Assembly (NCBI RefSeq): GCF_000463015.1
Contig: NC_022247.1
Span: 4,774,001-4,838,000, forward strand
DNA from: Variovorax paradoxus B4
Lineage (GTDB): Bacteria; Pseudomonadota; Gammaproteobacteria; Burkholderiales; Burkholderiaceae_C
Direction: 5' to 3'
Length of the DNA: 64,000 nt
Part shown: positions 56,901-63,941 of the stretch, in pieces
How the letters are laid out: every line of letters starts with the position of its first letter
Position numbering within the stretch: position 1 is the first letter of the stretch
Notes under the pieces: model-generated
Told to the model about the DNA's origin: nothing
What the model saw: only the letters and a program-made list of their open reading frames with translations
The model's database searches: none
Position numbers and translations under genes: made by a program

Positions 56901-57029
56901 GGGGAAGGAAACGGCGCAGAAAAAAGCCCGCCGAGTCGGCTGGCGGGCAGTGCGAGCGTAGCAGGATGGCGCGGGCCCTGCAGGCGCCGCGGCACGGCAC
57001 TTACGCGGCCATGGGCCATCTTCGGAAAC

Positions 57030-57045
57030 TGTGCGTAAACGCACA
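57030..57045. promoter_or_regulatory. Palindrome upstream of doxX-like gene
   Basis: TGTGCGT-AA-ACGCACA is a perfect seven-base inverted repeat, 82 bases before the DoxX ATG, in the 227-base gap that separates it from the divergent TSUP gene. No other clear feature was found in that gap. It could bind a regulator of either gene. Confidence 0.45.
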
Positions 57046-57127
57046 TACCGGCAGGCGGCGGCTCCGCACACTGCAAGTACAACCGCCGCACCCCGCGGCG
57101 GCCCTCCCATTTTTTTCAGGATCCGCC

Positions 57128-57604
57128 ATGAACACCCAGGCCGTAGCCGCCAACTCCGCGCGTGCGCCGATCGCACCTTCGCAGGCTTCCTCCGTCTCCC
57201 CCGCCACGCTGGACGATTCCGGCAAGCTGCTGCTGCGCGTGGCGATCGGCGTGCTCGTGCTGCTGCACGGCATTTTCAAGATCTCCGCCGGCGTGGGCTT
57301 CGTGAGCGCGATGCTGGTGAAGGCCGGCCTGCCGGGCGGGCTGGCCTACCTGGTGTACGTGGGCGAGATCGTGGCGCCGCTGCTCATGATCGCCGGCTTC
57401 TGGACCCGCGCCGCCGCCGGCGTGGTCGTCATCAACATGCTCGCAGCCTTTGGCCTGGTGCACATGGCCGACCTGTTCGCCCTGACCAAGCAGGGCGGCT
57501 GGGCGCTCGAGCTGCAAGGCCTGTACCTGTTCGGCGCGCTGGCAGTGGTGCTGCTGGGCGCGGGCCGCTTCAGCCTCGGCGGTCTGCGCGGCCGCTGGAA
57601 CTGA
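57128..57604 (+). CDS. DoxX family membrane protein
   Basis: A 158-residue four-helix protein of the DoxX family. After a ~25-residue polar N-terminus comes LLLRVAIGVLVLLHGIFKISAG, then LVYVGEIVAPLLMIAGFWTRAAA. DoxX-like proteins are linked to redox stress and quinone reactions, without a settled function. CAGGA precedes the ATG. Convergent with the Crp/Fnr gene. Confidence 0.9.
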   Translation: MNTQAVAANSARAPIAPSQASSVSPATLDDSGKLLLRVAIGVLVLLHGIFKISAGVGFVSAMLVKAGLPGGLAYLVYVGEIVAPLLMIAGFWTRAAAGVVVINMLAAFGLVHMADLFALTKQGGWALELQGLYLFGALAVVLLGAGRFSLGGLRGRWN

Positions 57605-57616
57605 GCCTCCGCCGGC

Positions 57617-58336
57617 TCAGCCGGCGTCGCCTCGTACCTGTGAAACCATCGCCTCGAGCCGGGCGACGTCGGCCACCAGCAGGGCCTTGCCCTCTTTCTG
57701 CAACACGCCGCTGCGCGCCAGCACGTTGAGCTCGCGGGTCACCTGCTCGCGGTTGGTGCTGATCTGGCTCGCCAGCGCCGCATGCCTGGGCGCCGGCTCC
57801 AGCCGCGCCTGGTTGTACGCCACGCCCGCGGTTCGCGCGAGGCGCAGCAACTCGGCATGCAGCCGGTTCTGGACCCCCAGCGTGCTCAGGTCGATCACGC
57901 GCTCCGACAGCTGGCGCACCAATGACGCCAGCCGCTGCATCACCCGCTCGGCCACCAGCGGCTCCTCGCGCAGCAGGCCCAGGAAGGCGGCGCGGTCGAG
58001 GCTGGCAAGCACGCTGGGCAGCAGCGTGACCACGTCGGCCGAACGCGGCCCGCCGTCGATGGCGGCAATGTCGCCGAAGTGCTCGCCGGCTTCCGAATCC
58101 CTGAAAGTCACCTGCCGCCCATTGGCCGCATAAGTGGTCACGCGGACCCGGCCCGAAACCAGCATGAACACCTCGCCCTGCTGCTCGGCGCGCAGCAGCA
58201 GGGGTTTACCGGCCTCGACGCTGTGCCACAGGCATTGCTGCGCGAGCAGGTCGAGCCGCTGGTCTGAAAGGCCTTCGAAAAGCGCGATGCGGCGCAGCGC
58301 GAGGCTGGAACGGGGGGTGCTTGAAGTTGGGGCCAT
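57617..58336 (-). CDS. Crp/Fnr family regulator with cAMP-type binding cassette
   Basis: A 239-residue Crp/Fnr-type regulator. The cyclic-nucleotide domain occupies about residues 20-140; its phosphate-binding cassette reads HFGDIAAIDGGPRSADV, keeping the Arg-Ser of Crp and with Asp for the Crp Glu. No FNR cysteine cluster is present. The C-terminal winged helix has ALASQISTNREQVTRELNVL. It is divergent from an adenylate cyclase gene with 54 bases between starts, so it may read the cAMP made by it. ATG 58336 is used; 58360 adds eight residues. Confidence 0.9.
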   Translation of the reverse strand: MAPTSSTPRSSLALRRIALFEGLSDQRLDLLAQQCLWHSVEAGKPLLLRAEQQGEVFMLVSGRVRVTTYAANGRQVTFRDSEAGEHFGDIAAIDGGPRSADVVTLLPSVLASLDRAAFLGLLREEPLVAERVMQRLASLVRQLSERVIDLSTLGVQNRLHAELLRLARTAGVAYNQARLEPAPRHAALASQISTNREQVTRELNVLARSGVLQKEGKALLVADVARLEAMVSQVRGDAG

Positions 58337-58390
58337 GCCGGTGGGTAGGGGCGCGCGCATTATGCTCGGGTGCCCCCTTCGAAGCCCTTC

Positions 58391-60034
58391 ATGGACAGAC
58401 GCTCTCCACCCATCGCCCTGCTGCCGCGATCGCCGACCCGGCGCAACCTCCGATGGACGAGCGGGCTGGTGCTGATGGCCTATGTCACGGCGCACCTGCT
58501 GAACCATTCGCTGGGCATCGCCTCCTTCGCGGCGGCCGAGTCGGTGCTGCGCGGCGTGCAGGTCTTCTGGCACAGCCTGCCGGGCACGCTGCTGCTGTAT
58601 GGTGCGGCCAGCGTGCACCTGGCGCTGGCCGTGGCCGCGCTGTGGGAGCGCCGCACGCTGCGCATGCCGCCGCTCGAGGGCCTGCGCGTGCTGCTGGGCT
58701 TTGTGCTGCCGCTGCTGCTGGCCACCCACCTGACCGCCATGCGCGGCGCCTACCTCGCCTACGGCATCGAGGGTTCCTACGTCCGCGTGGTCTCGGGCCT
58801 GTGGAGCCTGCCGGGCGCCGGCGCGCAGTTCACGATGCTGCTTGCGGCCTGGACCCATGGCTGCCTCGGCATCCACTTCGCGCTGCGGGCGCGGCCGGCC
58901 TACCGCCGCTTTTCCTATCTGCTGCTGGCCATTGCCGTCGTGCTGCCGCTCGCGGCGATGATGGGTTTCGTCTCGATGGGGCGCGAGTTCCAGTGGACCG
59001 GCGTGCCGCCTGCGGCGCTGCCAACCCCGGCCGAGGGCCGTGCGCTCGACACGGCGGAAGGCCGCATCAAGCTCTTCTACGCGCTCGGCCTGGCCGCCCT
59101 GCTGGCGGCGTACGGGGCGCGCAACTGGTTCGCGCGCCGCGCGCGCGGGCTGTCGATCGCGCTGCGCTACCCCGGCCGCACGGTGCACGTGCCGCGCGGC
59201 TGGAGCGTGCTGGAGGCGAGCCGCTCGCACGGCATCGCCCATCTCTCGGTGTGCGGCGGCCGGGCACGCTGCTCGACCTGCCGCGTGCGCGTGCTCGGCC
59301 CCGCACAGCACACGGACCCGCCCGACCGCGACGAGCAGCGAACGCTCGAGCGCGTGCGCGCACCGGGCGGTGTGCGGCTGGCCTGCCAGCTGCGCCCGCG
59401 AGGCGACATTGAGGTCATCCCGCTGTTCGCGCCGGCAAGCCACGGAAGGCAGCCGGCGCCGGCCAGCAGCTTCGGCCGCGAGCGCGACGTGGCCATCTTG
59501 TTCGTGGACCTGCGGCGCTGGTCGGGGCTGTCGGAAGGGCAATGGCCCTTCGACCTGGCCTATGTGCTCGACCGCTACTTCGCCACCGTGGGCGCCGCGG
59601 TGCGCGAATGCGGCGGCGTGCCGAACCAGTTCATCGGCGACAGCGTGATGGCGATCTTCGGGCTCGACACCGACCTGCCCACTGCCTGCCGGCAGGCGCT
59701 GCGCGCGACCGAACTCATCGGCCAGCGCATGGATGCGTGGAGCGAAGGCTTCGAAGCCCAGTTCGGCCAGCCGCTGGACTTCGGCATGGGCCTGCACGCC
59801 GGACGCGCGGCGGTGGGTGAAGTGGGCTACCTCGACACGACCACCTTCACCGCGATCGGCGAAGTGGTCAACACCGCGAGCCGGCTTCAGGACCATTCCA
59901 AGACGGCCGCATCGCGCCTGGTGGTCTCGGTGTATGCCGCGCAGCAGGCCGGCTTCGCGCATGCGGGGGGACAGGTCGAAATGCTGGCCGTGCGCGGCCG
60001 CTCCGAGCCGCTTGCGGTGATCTGCTCCGAGTAG
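58391..60034 (+). CDS. Membrane adenylate cyclase with haem-type anchor and [2Fe-2S] domain
   Basis: A 547-residue class III cyclase of the CyaC type. Six hydrophobic helices (about 22-245) bear histidines in four of them: His35/39, His76, His113 and His156/162, matching the tetra-histidine pattern of dihaem succinate-quinone reductase anchors. A ferredoxin domain follows with Cys288, Cys294, Cys297 and Cys332. The catalytic domain (about 362-547) has metal Asp373 in FVDLRRW and Asp417 in IGDSVMAIFG, and the transition-state Asn494/Arg498 in VVNTASR. S. meliloti CyaC of this plan is known to respond to the quinone redox state. GTG at 58370 is an alternative start. Confidence 0.92.
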   Translation: MDRRSPPIALLPRSPTRRNLRWTSGLVLMAYVTAHLLNHSLGIASFAAAESVLRGVQVFWHSLPGTLLLYGAASVHLALAVAALWERRTLRMPPLEGLRVLLGFVLPLLLATHLTAMRGAYLAYGIEGSYVRVVSGLWSLPGAGAQFTMLLAAWTHGCLGIHFALRARPAYRRFSYLLLAIAVVLPLAAMMGFVSMGREFQWTGVPPAALPTPAEGRALDTAEGRIKLFYALGLAALLAAYGARNWFARRARGLSIALRYPGRTVHVPRGWSVLEASRSHGIAHLSVCGGRARCSTCRVRVLGPAQHTDPPDRDEQRTLERVRAPGGVRLACQLRPRGDIEVIPLFAPASHGRQPAPASSFGRERDVAILFVDLRRWSGLSEGQWPFDLAYVLDRYFATVGAAVRECGGVPNQFIGDSVMAIFGLDTDLPTACRQALRATELIGQRMDAWSEGFEAQFGQPLDFGMGLHAGRAAVGEVGYLDTTTFTAIGEVVNTASRLQDHSKTAASRLVVSVYAAQQAGFAHAGGQVEMLAVRGRSEPLAVICSE

Positions 60035-60059: not shown

Positions 60060-61097
60060 TCAGGCCGGCGCCACCTTCACGGTGGCCGCACCGGGCGCTT
60101 GCGTGATGGCGTAGCGCACCGGCAGGAAGCGTTCGATCACCGCGCAGTTGGTACGCGTGTGCTCGGTCACTTCGCTGCAGGTGAAGGTGCCGCCGCGGCC
60201 GCTTCGCCATGCCGCCAGCCCCTGCAGCAGGGCCAGTTGATCGGCAAGGTGCGGCCCCACGGCCGCCTGGCTGTTCTGGAATTCGCGCAGCTCCTTCACC
60301 AGCCCGTGCGCCACCTGCTCGGCGCTCAGCGACTTTTCGCCGAAGGCCGTGAAGACCTCGGTGACCTGCTCGTACGCCAGCGTGGCAAGCAGCGCGTTGC
60401 CGGGCCCCTCGTTCTGGCGCGCCGTTCCGGTGCGCAGCTGCTCGCCGGACCATCCCATGGCCTTGCCCAGCGTTTCCAGCTCGCGCGTGGCGACGTGGCG
60501 CGCAAGCCCCGGCGCCAGGCACTCCGCATGGCCCGACAGGAGCGCGCCGCGGGTCGCCAGATCGAAAGGCCGCAGCCCAGCGGCGGCCGGCACGATGGTC
60601 GCTTCGACCTCGCCGCCGCCGGCGGGATAGAAACCGCAGCGGCGCAGCACCAGCTGCAGGTCCGCGCCCAGGCGGCGCACCAGCGGCGCAAAGGCGCGTT
60701 CCAGAAAATGGAAGGGTGGCGCCATCGGGTTGTGTGTTCCGCCGCTCAGATGCAGATGGCTCGGCGCATCGGCCAGCAGCAGCGGCGGCAGCACCGTCTG
60801 CAGGACCAGCATGCAGCTGCCCGCACTGGCAATCGCGAAGCGGTAGTCGCCCGCGCGCACCGGCCCGGGCACGAAGCGCAGCGACTGCGAACCGAGCTCG
60901 GCCCCTTCCACCTGCGCGCCGCTGATCCGGGCTGCGGCATTCACGCACGCCAGGTGCTGGCGCATCAGGCCCGGCTTGACGCGGCCCGCGCGAATCTTCT
61001 CGATGGCCACGGGCTGGCCCGTAGCCACCGACAGGGCCAGGCTGGTGCGCAGGATCTGCCCGCCGCCCTCGCCTTGCGAACCGTCGAGCTCGATCAT
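60060..61097 (-). CDS. rtcA: RNA 3'-terminal phosphate cyclase
   Basis: A 345-residue RtcA. The signature GSQGEGGGQILRTSLALS is at residues 6-23, and the adenylated His lies in SEVTEHTRTNCAVIERFL near the C-terminus. It converts RNA 3'-phosphate ends to 2',3'-cyclic phosphates using ATP. GGAGG precedes the ATG at 61097, which overlaps the zinc-ribbon gene stop by four bases. Confidence 0.95.
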   Translation of the reverse strand: MIELDGSQGEGGGQILRTSLALSVATGQPVAIEKIRAGRVKPGLMRQHLACVNAAARISGAQVEGAELGSQSLRFVPGPVRAGDYRFAIASAGSCMLVLQTVLPPLLLADAPSHLHLSGGTHNPMAPPFHFLERAFAPLVRRLGADLQLVLRRCGFYPAGGGEVEATIVPAAAGLRPFDLATRGALLSGHAECLAPGLARHVATRELETLGKAMGWSGEQLRTGTARQNEGPGNALLATLAYEQVTEVFTAFGEKSLSAEQVAHGLVKELREFQNSQAAVGPHLADQLALLQGLAAWRSGRGGTFTCSEVTEHTRTNCAVIERFLPVRYAITQAPGAATVKVAPA

Positions 61098-61471
61098 GCG
61101 CGGCCTCCTTCCTGCGCCGCGGCCGCGCCGGAGCGCAGAAGCGCGCGCCTTGCGAGCCGGCAGGCACGGCAGCGCACCGCCGTGCTGTTGATGTTTCCCA
61201 GCGCCACCTCGTACCACCACTTCTGCTGCTTTGCCGTCCACACTTCGCCGACACCGCAGTCGCGGCAAGTGAAAGCCTTGTCCACATAGAACGTGGGCAG
61301 CAGCCCGTAGGTATTGTTGTGCGCGGCCAGCAGCGCCGTATCGGCGACCACCAGGCCGGCACCAGCCACCGGCCGCTCGCCGGCGGACAGCCGTTGTTCG
61401 GCCACCCTGCGCGCGGCGCGTTCGAGCCGATGTGCCTTGATTTCGGCGCGGCGTTGCTTGTTGCTTTTCAT
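61094..61471 (-). CDS. Zinc-ribbon protein in the rtc operon
   Basis: A 125-residue basic protein. After a Lys/Arg-rich N-terminal helix comes YVDKAFTCRDCGVGEVWTAKQQKWWY and a second pair CRAC, forming a four-cysteine ribbon of the zf-trcl type. It sits between rtcB and rtcA and overlaps rtcA (ATGA), so it is expressed with them. Basic charge plus zinc ribbon suggests nucleic-acid binding, perhaps as a partner of the ligase or cyclase. No function is known to me. Confidence 0.85.
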   Translation of the reverse strand: MKSNKQRRAEIKAHRLERAARRVAEQRLSAGERPVAGAGLVVADTALLAAHNNTYGLLPTFYVDKAFTCRDCGVGEVWTAKQQKWWYEVALGNINSTAVRCRACRLARRALLRSGAAAAQEGGRA

Positions 61472-61497
61472 GGCCCCTCTTCTTCTTCCTCAATGCC

Positions 61498-61523
61498 AGG
61501 CCGCGGGCAATCGCCCGCGGCCT
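61498..61523 (-). other. Intercistronic hairpin between rtcB and zinc-ribbon gene
   Basis: AGGCCGCGGGC and GCCCGCGGCCT form a perfect 11-pair stem with a four-base loop, four bases beyond the rtcB stop. No T run follows in the direction of transcription, so it probably protects the rtcB mRNA end or lowers expression of the downstream genes. Confidence 0.65.
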
Positions 61524-61527
61524 TTGC

Positions 61528-62751
<1,224 letters not shown>

Positions 62752-62789
62752 TTTTTTTCTCTCTTCCATCGTTCGTTCTTCAGTGCTCC

Positions 62790-63941
62790 TCAAGATGCGT
62801 TCGGCCGCAGCGTCACCAATCCGTTGAGCACCTGGTCCAGACCACCGACCACCGAGATCTTGTCGATCCGTTCGGCCACGCGTTCCAGCGTCTCGAGTTC
62901 CTTCATCCGCAACGCGACGGGGTTGCCCTCCATCACCTTGGCGGTGTTCAGCAGCGACCGCGTGGCCGCGGTTTCCTCGCGGCGGCGGATCACGTTGGCC
63001 TGGGCCGACTTCTCGGCCTCCACCACCTGGGCCAGGATGGTCTTCATCTCGCCCGGCAGGATGATGTCCTTCACGCCCACGCTCTCCAGCACGACGCCCG
63101 AATCCTTCAGCCGCTCGCGCATCTGCGCCAACACCGTCTGATCGATGGCCGCCTTGTTCTCCAACAGTGCGTCCAGCGTCTGCTCGCCTACCGCGGCACG
63201 CAGGCCGAACTGCAGTTCACGATAGACATGTTCGGCCGGCTTGGGCATTTGCGCCAGCGCCTGGCGCACGTCGGTGAAGCGCCATACCGCAGACAGGTTC
63301 AGCCGCAGCCCCACCTTGTCGCGGGTCAGGATCTCCTGGCCGCTCACCTCGGCGATCTGCGAACGCAGGTCCACGCAAGTCACCGCGACCTGACGGTTGA
63401 AACGCCAGAAGCCGTGGTTGCCCGGCGGCAGCATCGCCTGCATCTGCCCTTCGAGCGTCAGCACGCCGGCATGGAACTCGGGCACCTGCACCAGCAGCAC
63501 GCCGTCGAGCCCTTGCACCGCGCGTGGGCGCAGGGCCACGCTCTGCAGCTTTGCCAGCAATTCAGCCGGCAGGCGCGCATCGGCCGCCACGTCGACAACG
63601 TCCACGCGCTGCTCGCGCAGGCCGCGCCAGTACAACTTGCGCGTGGCAGGCGGCAGGATCTGCACCAGCACACCGTCTTCATGGCGCAGGCCGACCTGGG
63701 TTTCGCCCAGCGACACCTGCACGAACTCGCGTTCGACCAGCTCGGGCTCGCGCGCCAGGAAGTAGTCGGCCAGCTCGTGGTCGAAGGCCGGCTCGGCGAG
63801 CGAGAAGCGCTCCAGCTTCAGGGCATCGAAGCCCGAGAACACCCGGTGCTTTCCCGGGCCGAGCAGTTGCTCGAAGTCGCCATTGCGCAGCAGCAGCGCA
63901 CGTTCGTTCTTCTTGACGGTGTATTGATTGAAACCCAGCAT
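62790..63941 (-). CDS. Slipin / SPFH (band 7) family protein
   Basis: A 383-residue SPFH protein beginning MLGFNQYTVKKNERALLLRN. The band-7 core (about residues 165-335) includes VDLRSQIAEVSGQEILTRDKVGLRLNLSAVWRF and a coiled segment VVEAEKSAQANVIRRREETAATRSLLNTA. There is no N-terminal membrane helix, unlike most slipins. It leads the rtc operon; such a slipin-rtcB pairing is recurrent in RNA-repair operons. GGGAG precedes the ATG. The 59 bases beyond it show no sigma-54 (-24/-12) site, so the promoter, and any rtcR gene, would lie outside the window. Confidence 0.9.
   Translation of the reverse strand: MLGFNQYTVKKNERALLLRNGDFEQLLGPGKHRVFSGFDALKLERFSLAEPAFDHELADYFLAREPELVEREFVQVSLGETQVGLRHEDGVLVQILPPATRKLYWRGLREQRVDVVDVAADARLPAELLAKLQSVALRPRAVQGLDGVLLVQVPEFHAGVLTLEGQMQAMLPPGNHGFWRFNRQVAVTCVDLRSQIAEVSGQEILTRDKVGLRLNLSAVWRFTDVRQALAQMPKPAEHVYRELQFGLRAAVGEQTLDALLENKAAIDQTVLAQMRERLKDSGVVLESVGVKDIILPGEMKTILAQVVEAEKSAQANVIRRREETAATRSLLNTAKVMEGNPVALRMKELETLERVAERIDKISVVGGLDQVLNGLVTLRPNAS

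Follow-up and report, generated by a model that had tools for sequence, protein, structure and literature searches.

The analyzed stretch, referred to here as the window, covers 64,000 nucleotides of Variovorax paradoxus B4 (contig NC_022247.1, positions 4,774,001 to 4,838,000). It contains two divergent genes, one encoding a CyaC-like class III nucleotide cyclase and the other a Crp/Fnr-family regulator. The cyclase open reading frame (ORF) runs from ATG 58391 to its end at 60034 on the plus strand and encodes 547 residues (P0002). The Crp ORF lies on the minus strand from 57617 and may start at ATG 58336, leaving a gap of 54 bp, or at ATG 58360, leaving 30 bp. We favor ATG 58336, because the upper ATG 58360, though also possible, overlaps with a conserved −10-like element (58357-58366). 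With the preferred start, the genes are arranged as an earlier note on this DNA had described, divergently and 54 bases apart. Crp residue numbers are counted from the upper ATG 58360 (247 residues, P0001). Both genes are real, and their features are as follows.

57617 to 58336, minus strand: Crp/Fnr-family regulator with a cyclic nucleotide monophosphate (cNMP)-binding domain and a Crp-type helix-turn-helix (HTH), from domain matches and a divergent ortholog in relatives.
57908 to 57910, minus strand: Leu151, at the position of E. coli CRP Thr127 and Clr Thr140 (42/42 pair regulators).
58040 to 58045, minus strand: Arg106-Ser107, phosphate-contact pair of the cNMP pocket (42/42 pair regulators).
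58337 to 58390, no strand: divergent intergenic region of 54 bp, aligned across 42 regions.
58357 to 58366, no strand: conserved GCATTATGCT element, perhaps overlapping divergent −10 elements.
58391 to 60034, plus strand: CyaC-like class III nucleotide cyclase, from the ORF, Pfam domains, and genome searches.
58439 to 59140, plus strand: six-helix membrane domain, residues 17-250, with His35, His76, His113, and His156.
59174 to 59398, plus strand: [2Fe-2S] ferredoxin domain, residues 262-336 (PF00111; adrenodoxin and putidaredoxin structures matched by profile).
59480 to 60031, plus strand: class III cyclase catalytic domain, residues 364-547.
59627 to 59629, plus strand: Gln413 codon, at the adenine-specifying Lys site, from an alignment of relatives.

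The predicted plan of the cyclase is CyaC-like, with six helices followed by a ferredoxin domain and a class III cyclase domain. Pfam assigned Fer2 (PF00111) to residues 262-336 and Guanylate_cyc (PF00211) to residues 364-519, and no Pfam model matched the helical N-terminal part, the helices of which do appear in structure models. A separate helix-only model was used because the list from the whole-protein fold search was filled with cyclase domains. Its best fold matches, at modest scores, were the membrane anchors of succinate dehydrogenase and fumarate reductase (SDH and QFR), which are of the diheme type. We then compared 89 aligned cyclase relatives, comprising 41 Crp-linked loci and 48 unlinked ones. 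The linked set contains two duplicates (L076 = L009 and L077 = L015) and hence 39 distinct loci; left out of the 89 were two partial loci at contig ends (L026 and L027), seven loci that are sensor-only or otherwise odd (L086-L092), and four ferredoxin-only matches (G628, G415, G422, and G441). His35, His76, His113, and His156 and all four ferredoxin cysteines (Cys288-x5-Cys294-x2-Cys297-x34-Cys332) were invariant in 89/89, even in relatives with a degenerate cyclase domain. The two other helical histidines were less fixed: His39 gave way to Val, Ile, or Leu in 3 of the 48 unlinked relatives, and His162 was poorly conserved, being His in only 20 of them. The six helical histidines and the four-cysteine [2Fe-2S] domain of the earlier note are, accordingly, all present, and its comparison with Sinorhizobium meliloti CyaC (SMc01818), which likewise has a six-helix heme-binding membrane domain, an iron-sulfur (FeS) cluster, and a class III catalytic domain, is right as to the overall plan.

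Several relatives depart from this architecture. Six-helix relatives encoded by short ORFs (260-328 residues, stop to stop) without a cyclase domain were found at L086, L087, L088, L089, L091, and L092, and L090, from the same set of short ORFs, has helices and a ferredoxin domain without a cyclase domain. At L190 (5899-7038), six helices and a ferredoxin domain without a cyclase domain are directly followed on the same strand by a 735-residue ORF. In the CyaC-like proteins at L084 (5996-8014) and L085 (5858-8029), a Gly/Tyr/Ser-rich insert of ∼90 residues separates the helical part from the ferredoxin domain.

The catalytic domain retains the metal Asp pair (Asp373 and Asp417) together with Thr487, Asn494, and Arg498, and both Asp, the Thr/Ser, the Asn, and the Arg were kept in 41/41 Crp-linked loci. 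To this extent the class III domain is intact, as had been claimed, but the Lys that specifies adenine in canonical adenylyl cyclases is replaced by Gln413. At the second specificity site, Thr487 is as in adenylyl cyclases (Ser in 2 of the 41 linked loci). Gln occupied the Lys site in all 41 linked loci, as well as in every one of the 64 rows of alignment A2, which includes the window protein and overlaps the 41; the other three class III cyclases of this genome, in contrast, retain Lys. Among the 48 unlinked relatives, the site was Lys in 24, Gln in 17, and another residue or a gap in 7. We rejected Gln as a hallmark of the Crp-linked clade alone, as the 17 unlinked relatives that have it come from several lineages. 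Lys410, Thr484, Asn491, and Arg495 of CyaC correspond to Gln413, Thr487, Asn494, and Arg498 of the window cyclase at a constant offset of three, so that the two proteins differ at the Lys site; this match uses the residue numbers given in the available part of PMC10463352. Catalytic residues were lost in 8 of the 48 unlinked loci, one of them without the domain, with the sensor retained. Four close relatives of the Crp-linked cyclases (L078, L080, L082, and L083) are of this kind, keeping the four His and four Cys as a redox sensor with a pseudo-cyclase.

In the regulator, Pfam found cNMP_binding (PF00027) and HTH_Crp_2 (PF13545), and its best PDB sequence matches were 3d0s (Mycobacterium tuberculosis Crp, E 2e-19) and, level with it, 7pza (S. 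meliloti Clr, E 1.6e-19). Like these two proteins and Escherichia coli CRP, it has a cNMP domain with the Arg-Ser or Arg-Thr pair and a Crp-type HTH. Arg106-Ser107 of the phosphate cassette was invariant in 42/42 aligned pair regulators, the window’s included; the counterparts in Clr, Arg95 and Ser96, contact the nucleotide according to the available part of PMC10127613. Unlike in Clr, M. tuberculosis Crp, and E. coli CRP, the first base-contact residue of helix C is Leu (Leu151), and only the second (Ser/Thr) is kept. Leu held this position in all 42 pair regulators: the helix-C pair was Leu-Ser in 36 of them and Leu-Thr in the other 6, where E. coli CRP has Thr127-Ser128, so the Thr-Ser base-contact pair of the main Crp cluster (E. 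coli CRP type) is not preserved. In Clr, both Thr140 and Thr141 contact the base, and through them Clr binds cyclic AMP (cAMP) as well as cyclic GMP (cGMP) (PMC10127613, available part). The cAMP cassette that the earlier note attributed to the regulator is thus preserved in its Arg-Ser pair and altered at Leu151. The idea that this Leu co-varies with the Gln of the cyclase was discarded, since Leu is a wider feature of the Crp subfamily (15 of 16 relatives in other families).

We next turn to the pairing itself. Genome searches with the cyclase and the Crp scored few candidates per genome; counts therefore refer to the matches listed, and absence from a genome is not proof. A cyclase with ≥50% identity over most of its length occurred in 21 of 399 family genomes, and a Crp ortholog stood divergently beside it in 21/21. 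Absence of conserved adjacency across related genomes had been set beforehand as a refuting result; the adjacency proved conserved. In one genus of 17 genomes, both genes were side by side in 15, equal to 15/15 genomes with an intact Crp. The two others are G328, which had no cyclase match and carries a truncated Crp next to a DDE transposase gene, and G265, where neither gene was found. By Crp profile, no Crp with an HTH was found within ∼6 kb of the cyclase in 8 further family loci (40-45% identity) or in 40 loci of a 398-genome phylum survey, with some contigs ending sooner; on the tree, the pairing is therefore restricted to one clade. The window genome (7.15 Mb, two contigs) encodes 4 class III cyclase domains and has 16 cNMP-binding-domain genes, and had no match to a class I adenylate cyclase. 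Only this cyclase/Crp couple is adjacent, the next closest cyclase/cNMP couple being 33 kb apart; the adjacency is more than chance.

Four of the 40 phylum-survey loci have another cNMP-binding protein encoded directly upstream on the same strand. At L168 (5302-7492), L172 (5359-7579), and L175 (3179-5438), it is a cNMP-domain-only protein of 140-150 residues preceding a distant CyaC-like protein with a degraded cyclase. At L185 (5299-9741), a CyaC-like gene with an intact, Lys-type cyclase directly follows a metallo-beta-lactamase/cNMP-binding/hemerythrin gene. In the family set, L146 (6001-7451) has a Crp ortholog with a truncated N-terminus, an adjoining DDE transposase gene, and no cyclase beside it.

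The Crp subfamily is associated with class III cyclases beyond this couple. The family set yielded 18 further Crp matches among the matches listed, 12 at 43-69% identity and 6 at 35-38%. Of the former, which do not stand beside this cyclase, four lie near another class III cyclase: a response-regulator cyclase (L139), an AAA cyclase placed divergently (L149 and L150), and a SAM-AAA cyclase at 2.3 kb (L143). The six more remote relatives had no class III cyclase nearby. Among 16 Crp matches from other families of the order, a class III cyclase lies clearly within ∼6 kb in five, with an AAA cyclase placed divergently at L238 and a CHASE2 cyclase at L247 among them, and a weak match (12 bits) lies near another (L235). 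Across the family tree, Arg-Ser was kept in 23 of 24 cyclase-linked Crps vs. 1 of 12 unlinked ones (Fisher p 2.3e-7), with the truncated L146 and the remote L156 left out of the comparison and five of the 35-38% rows gapped at the site. In the other families, Arg-Ser was kept in 16/16. Judged by these residues, linkage goes with a kept pocket, and unlinked Crps appear to lose the pocket only inside this family.

The intergenic region between the two genes is conserved as well. Of 42 intergenic regions, 34 contain CATTATGCTC with at most one mismatch, 22 of them exactly, and SATTATGCTCRG has a single copy in the 7.15-Mb genome, for which reason we rejected the element as a reused motif. It can be read as −10-like on both strands, so that divergent transcripts perhaps arise from one site. 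No TGTGA-N6-TCACA-like CRP site was found in the spacer; the best candidate agreed at 5 of 10 positions, which was also the most frequent score among 2000 random stretches of the same length.

The surroundings of the pair are less constant. A DoxX-family gene (56966-57604) is convergent with the Crp gene, and the 41 linked loci have DoxX in 28 and TauE in 14. Downstream of the cyclase, RtcA, RtcB, and Band_7 genes (window 60060-63941, minus strand) form an RNA-repair type cluster. In the 16 linked loci outside the window’s genus (L059-L074), MFS and Band_7 neighbors occurred in none and RtcA and RtcB neighbors in one. The terminal oxidase genes noted earlier are present together with doxX: COX1, COX2, COX3, CtaA, and UbiA-type genes at 28.7-37.5 kb of the window, 20-29 kb from the pair. 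Nothing in this analysis links them to it. In S. meliloti, the TetR gene cycR precedes cyaC, and Clr (SMc02175) is encoded elsewhere; in the window, the direct neighbors of the cyclase are the divergent Crp and RtcA, with no TetR gene directly upstream.

On balance, we think that the two genes probably form a dedicated signaling pair in which quinone redox state is converted to a cyclic nucleotide and then to transcription through the cyclase’s own Crp receptor. By analogy with S. meliloti CyaC, the six-helix domain would hold two heme b groups ligated by His35, His76, His113, and His156 and exchange electrons with the quinone pool. A redox change would be relayed through the [2Fe-2S] domain, if it is loaded with its cluster, to a dimeric class III cyclase domain. 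The nucleotide made there would most likely be cAMP, since the enzyme shares Thr487 and its overall class with adenylyl cyclases. The divergently encoded Crp may bind it via Arg106-Ser107 and helix-C Ser152 and control transcription of its target genes. Three points weigh against this picture. What supports a local circuit of the kind the earlier note proposed is the gene association; its cAMP step is made less secure by Gln413 and Leu151 in every linked member; and the joint loss of Arg-Ser and linkage rests on two to three independent pairs and is absent in other families. Because the Gln and Leu changes also occur outside the pair, they are by themselves no proof of a changed nucleotide.

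Alternatively, the Crp may read the cyclic nucleotide of any cyclase in the cell and merely regulate the neighboring cyclase gene, rather than being its private receptor. This genome offers three further class III cyclase domains, all with Lys, the shared intergenic element suggests co-regulation, and the Crp relatives of other families keep the pocket though 10 of 16 had no cyclase found nearby. We nevertheless regard such a general reader as unlikely. Of the 12 family Crps without a neighboring cyclase, 11 have lost Arg-Ser and 9 the helix-C Ser/Thr, although 8 of the 12 lie in genomes with at least one cyclase-domain match (in four of them only the paired cyclase, elsewhere), and the spacer lacks a CRP-like site.

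A further alternative, compatible with a dedicated pair, concerns the input: the six-helix domain may sense oxygen, nitric oxide, or a soluble electron donor at the ferredoxin domain. Quinone sensing, heme, and ligand binding are carried over here from S. meliloti CyaC by resemblance, and the ferredoxin domain is adrenodoxin/putidaredoxin-like by profile. Ferredoxins of that type exchange electrons with soluble partners. We hold an input other than quinone to be rather improbable, since the four invariant His fit diheme ligation and CyaC, of the same plan, answers to ubiquinone as described in the available part of PMC10463352.

It is more doubtful that the pair signals through a nucleotide different from cAMP, such as cGMP, with Gln413 relaxing or switching the substrate, the Leu151/Ser152 helix accepting another base, and the line kept separate from the cell’s cAMP. 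Gln413 in 41/41 linked loci vs. Lys in the genome’s other cyclases and Leu in 42/42 regulators would fit, as would Clr’s binding of both nucleotides through Thr140/Thr141 (PMC10127613, available part). The Rhodospirillum centenum gcyB-gcyC-cgrA cluster is a precedent in that cyclase genes and their own CRP homolog are encoded together; it differs in using cGMP and in lying on one strand, and the available part of its description mentions no heme/FeS sensor (PMC4681086). However, neither change is specific to the pair: Gln occurs in 17 of 48 CyaC relatives without a Crp, and Leu occurs in Crp relatives without a nearby cyclase. Rv0386 is an adenylyl cyclase with Gln at the Lys site, which also counts against this alternative. 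Moreover, the GTP-specifying replacement of Lys in Ma1120 is Glu, not Gln (PMC4215837, available part). A private line insulated from cellular cAMP, in which a Gln413 quinone-sensing cyclase makes cGMP or a mixed product that is read by its Leu-Ser/Thr Crp partner, is accordingly a speculative extension that we consider improbable.

That Gln413 leaves the cyclase weak or dead and that signaling proceeds by direct contact with the Crp is very improbable. In its favor, eight unlinked relatives kept the sensor after loss of catalytic residues, three of them adjoining a cNMP-binding-only protein, and S. meliloti CyaC itself contacts Clr (PMC10463352, available part), but the catalytic Asp pair, Thr/Ser, Asn, and Arg are kept in 41/41 linked loci, which implies that catalysis is under selection.

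The cyclase architecture and quinone response are already known from S. meliloti CyaC, a diheme, ubiquinone-responsive cyclase that interacts with the Crp-like Clr; S. meliloti has 28 cyclases, and the cAMP made by CyaC is believed to act, along with a TetR partner, through a regulator whose gene lies elsewhere (PMC10463352, available part). A fixed cyclase-Crp partnership, a clade-invariant Gln413, and the Crp subfamily’s habit of accompanying cyclases were not found in the open-access literature searched; the partnership, like the changed residues for base recognition, looks new. Here, the sensor and its likely receptor are encoded and kept together, so that two genes are enough to test how a redox-made cyclic nucleotide gets to a single regulator. 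The natural Gln and Leu replacements, in turn, offer material for testing base selection on both the enzyme side and the receptor side.
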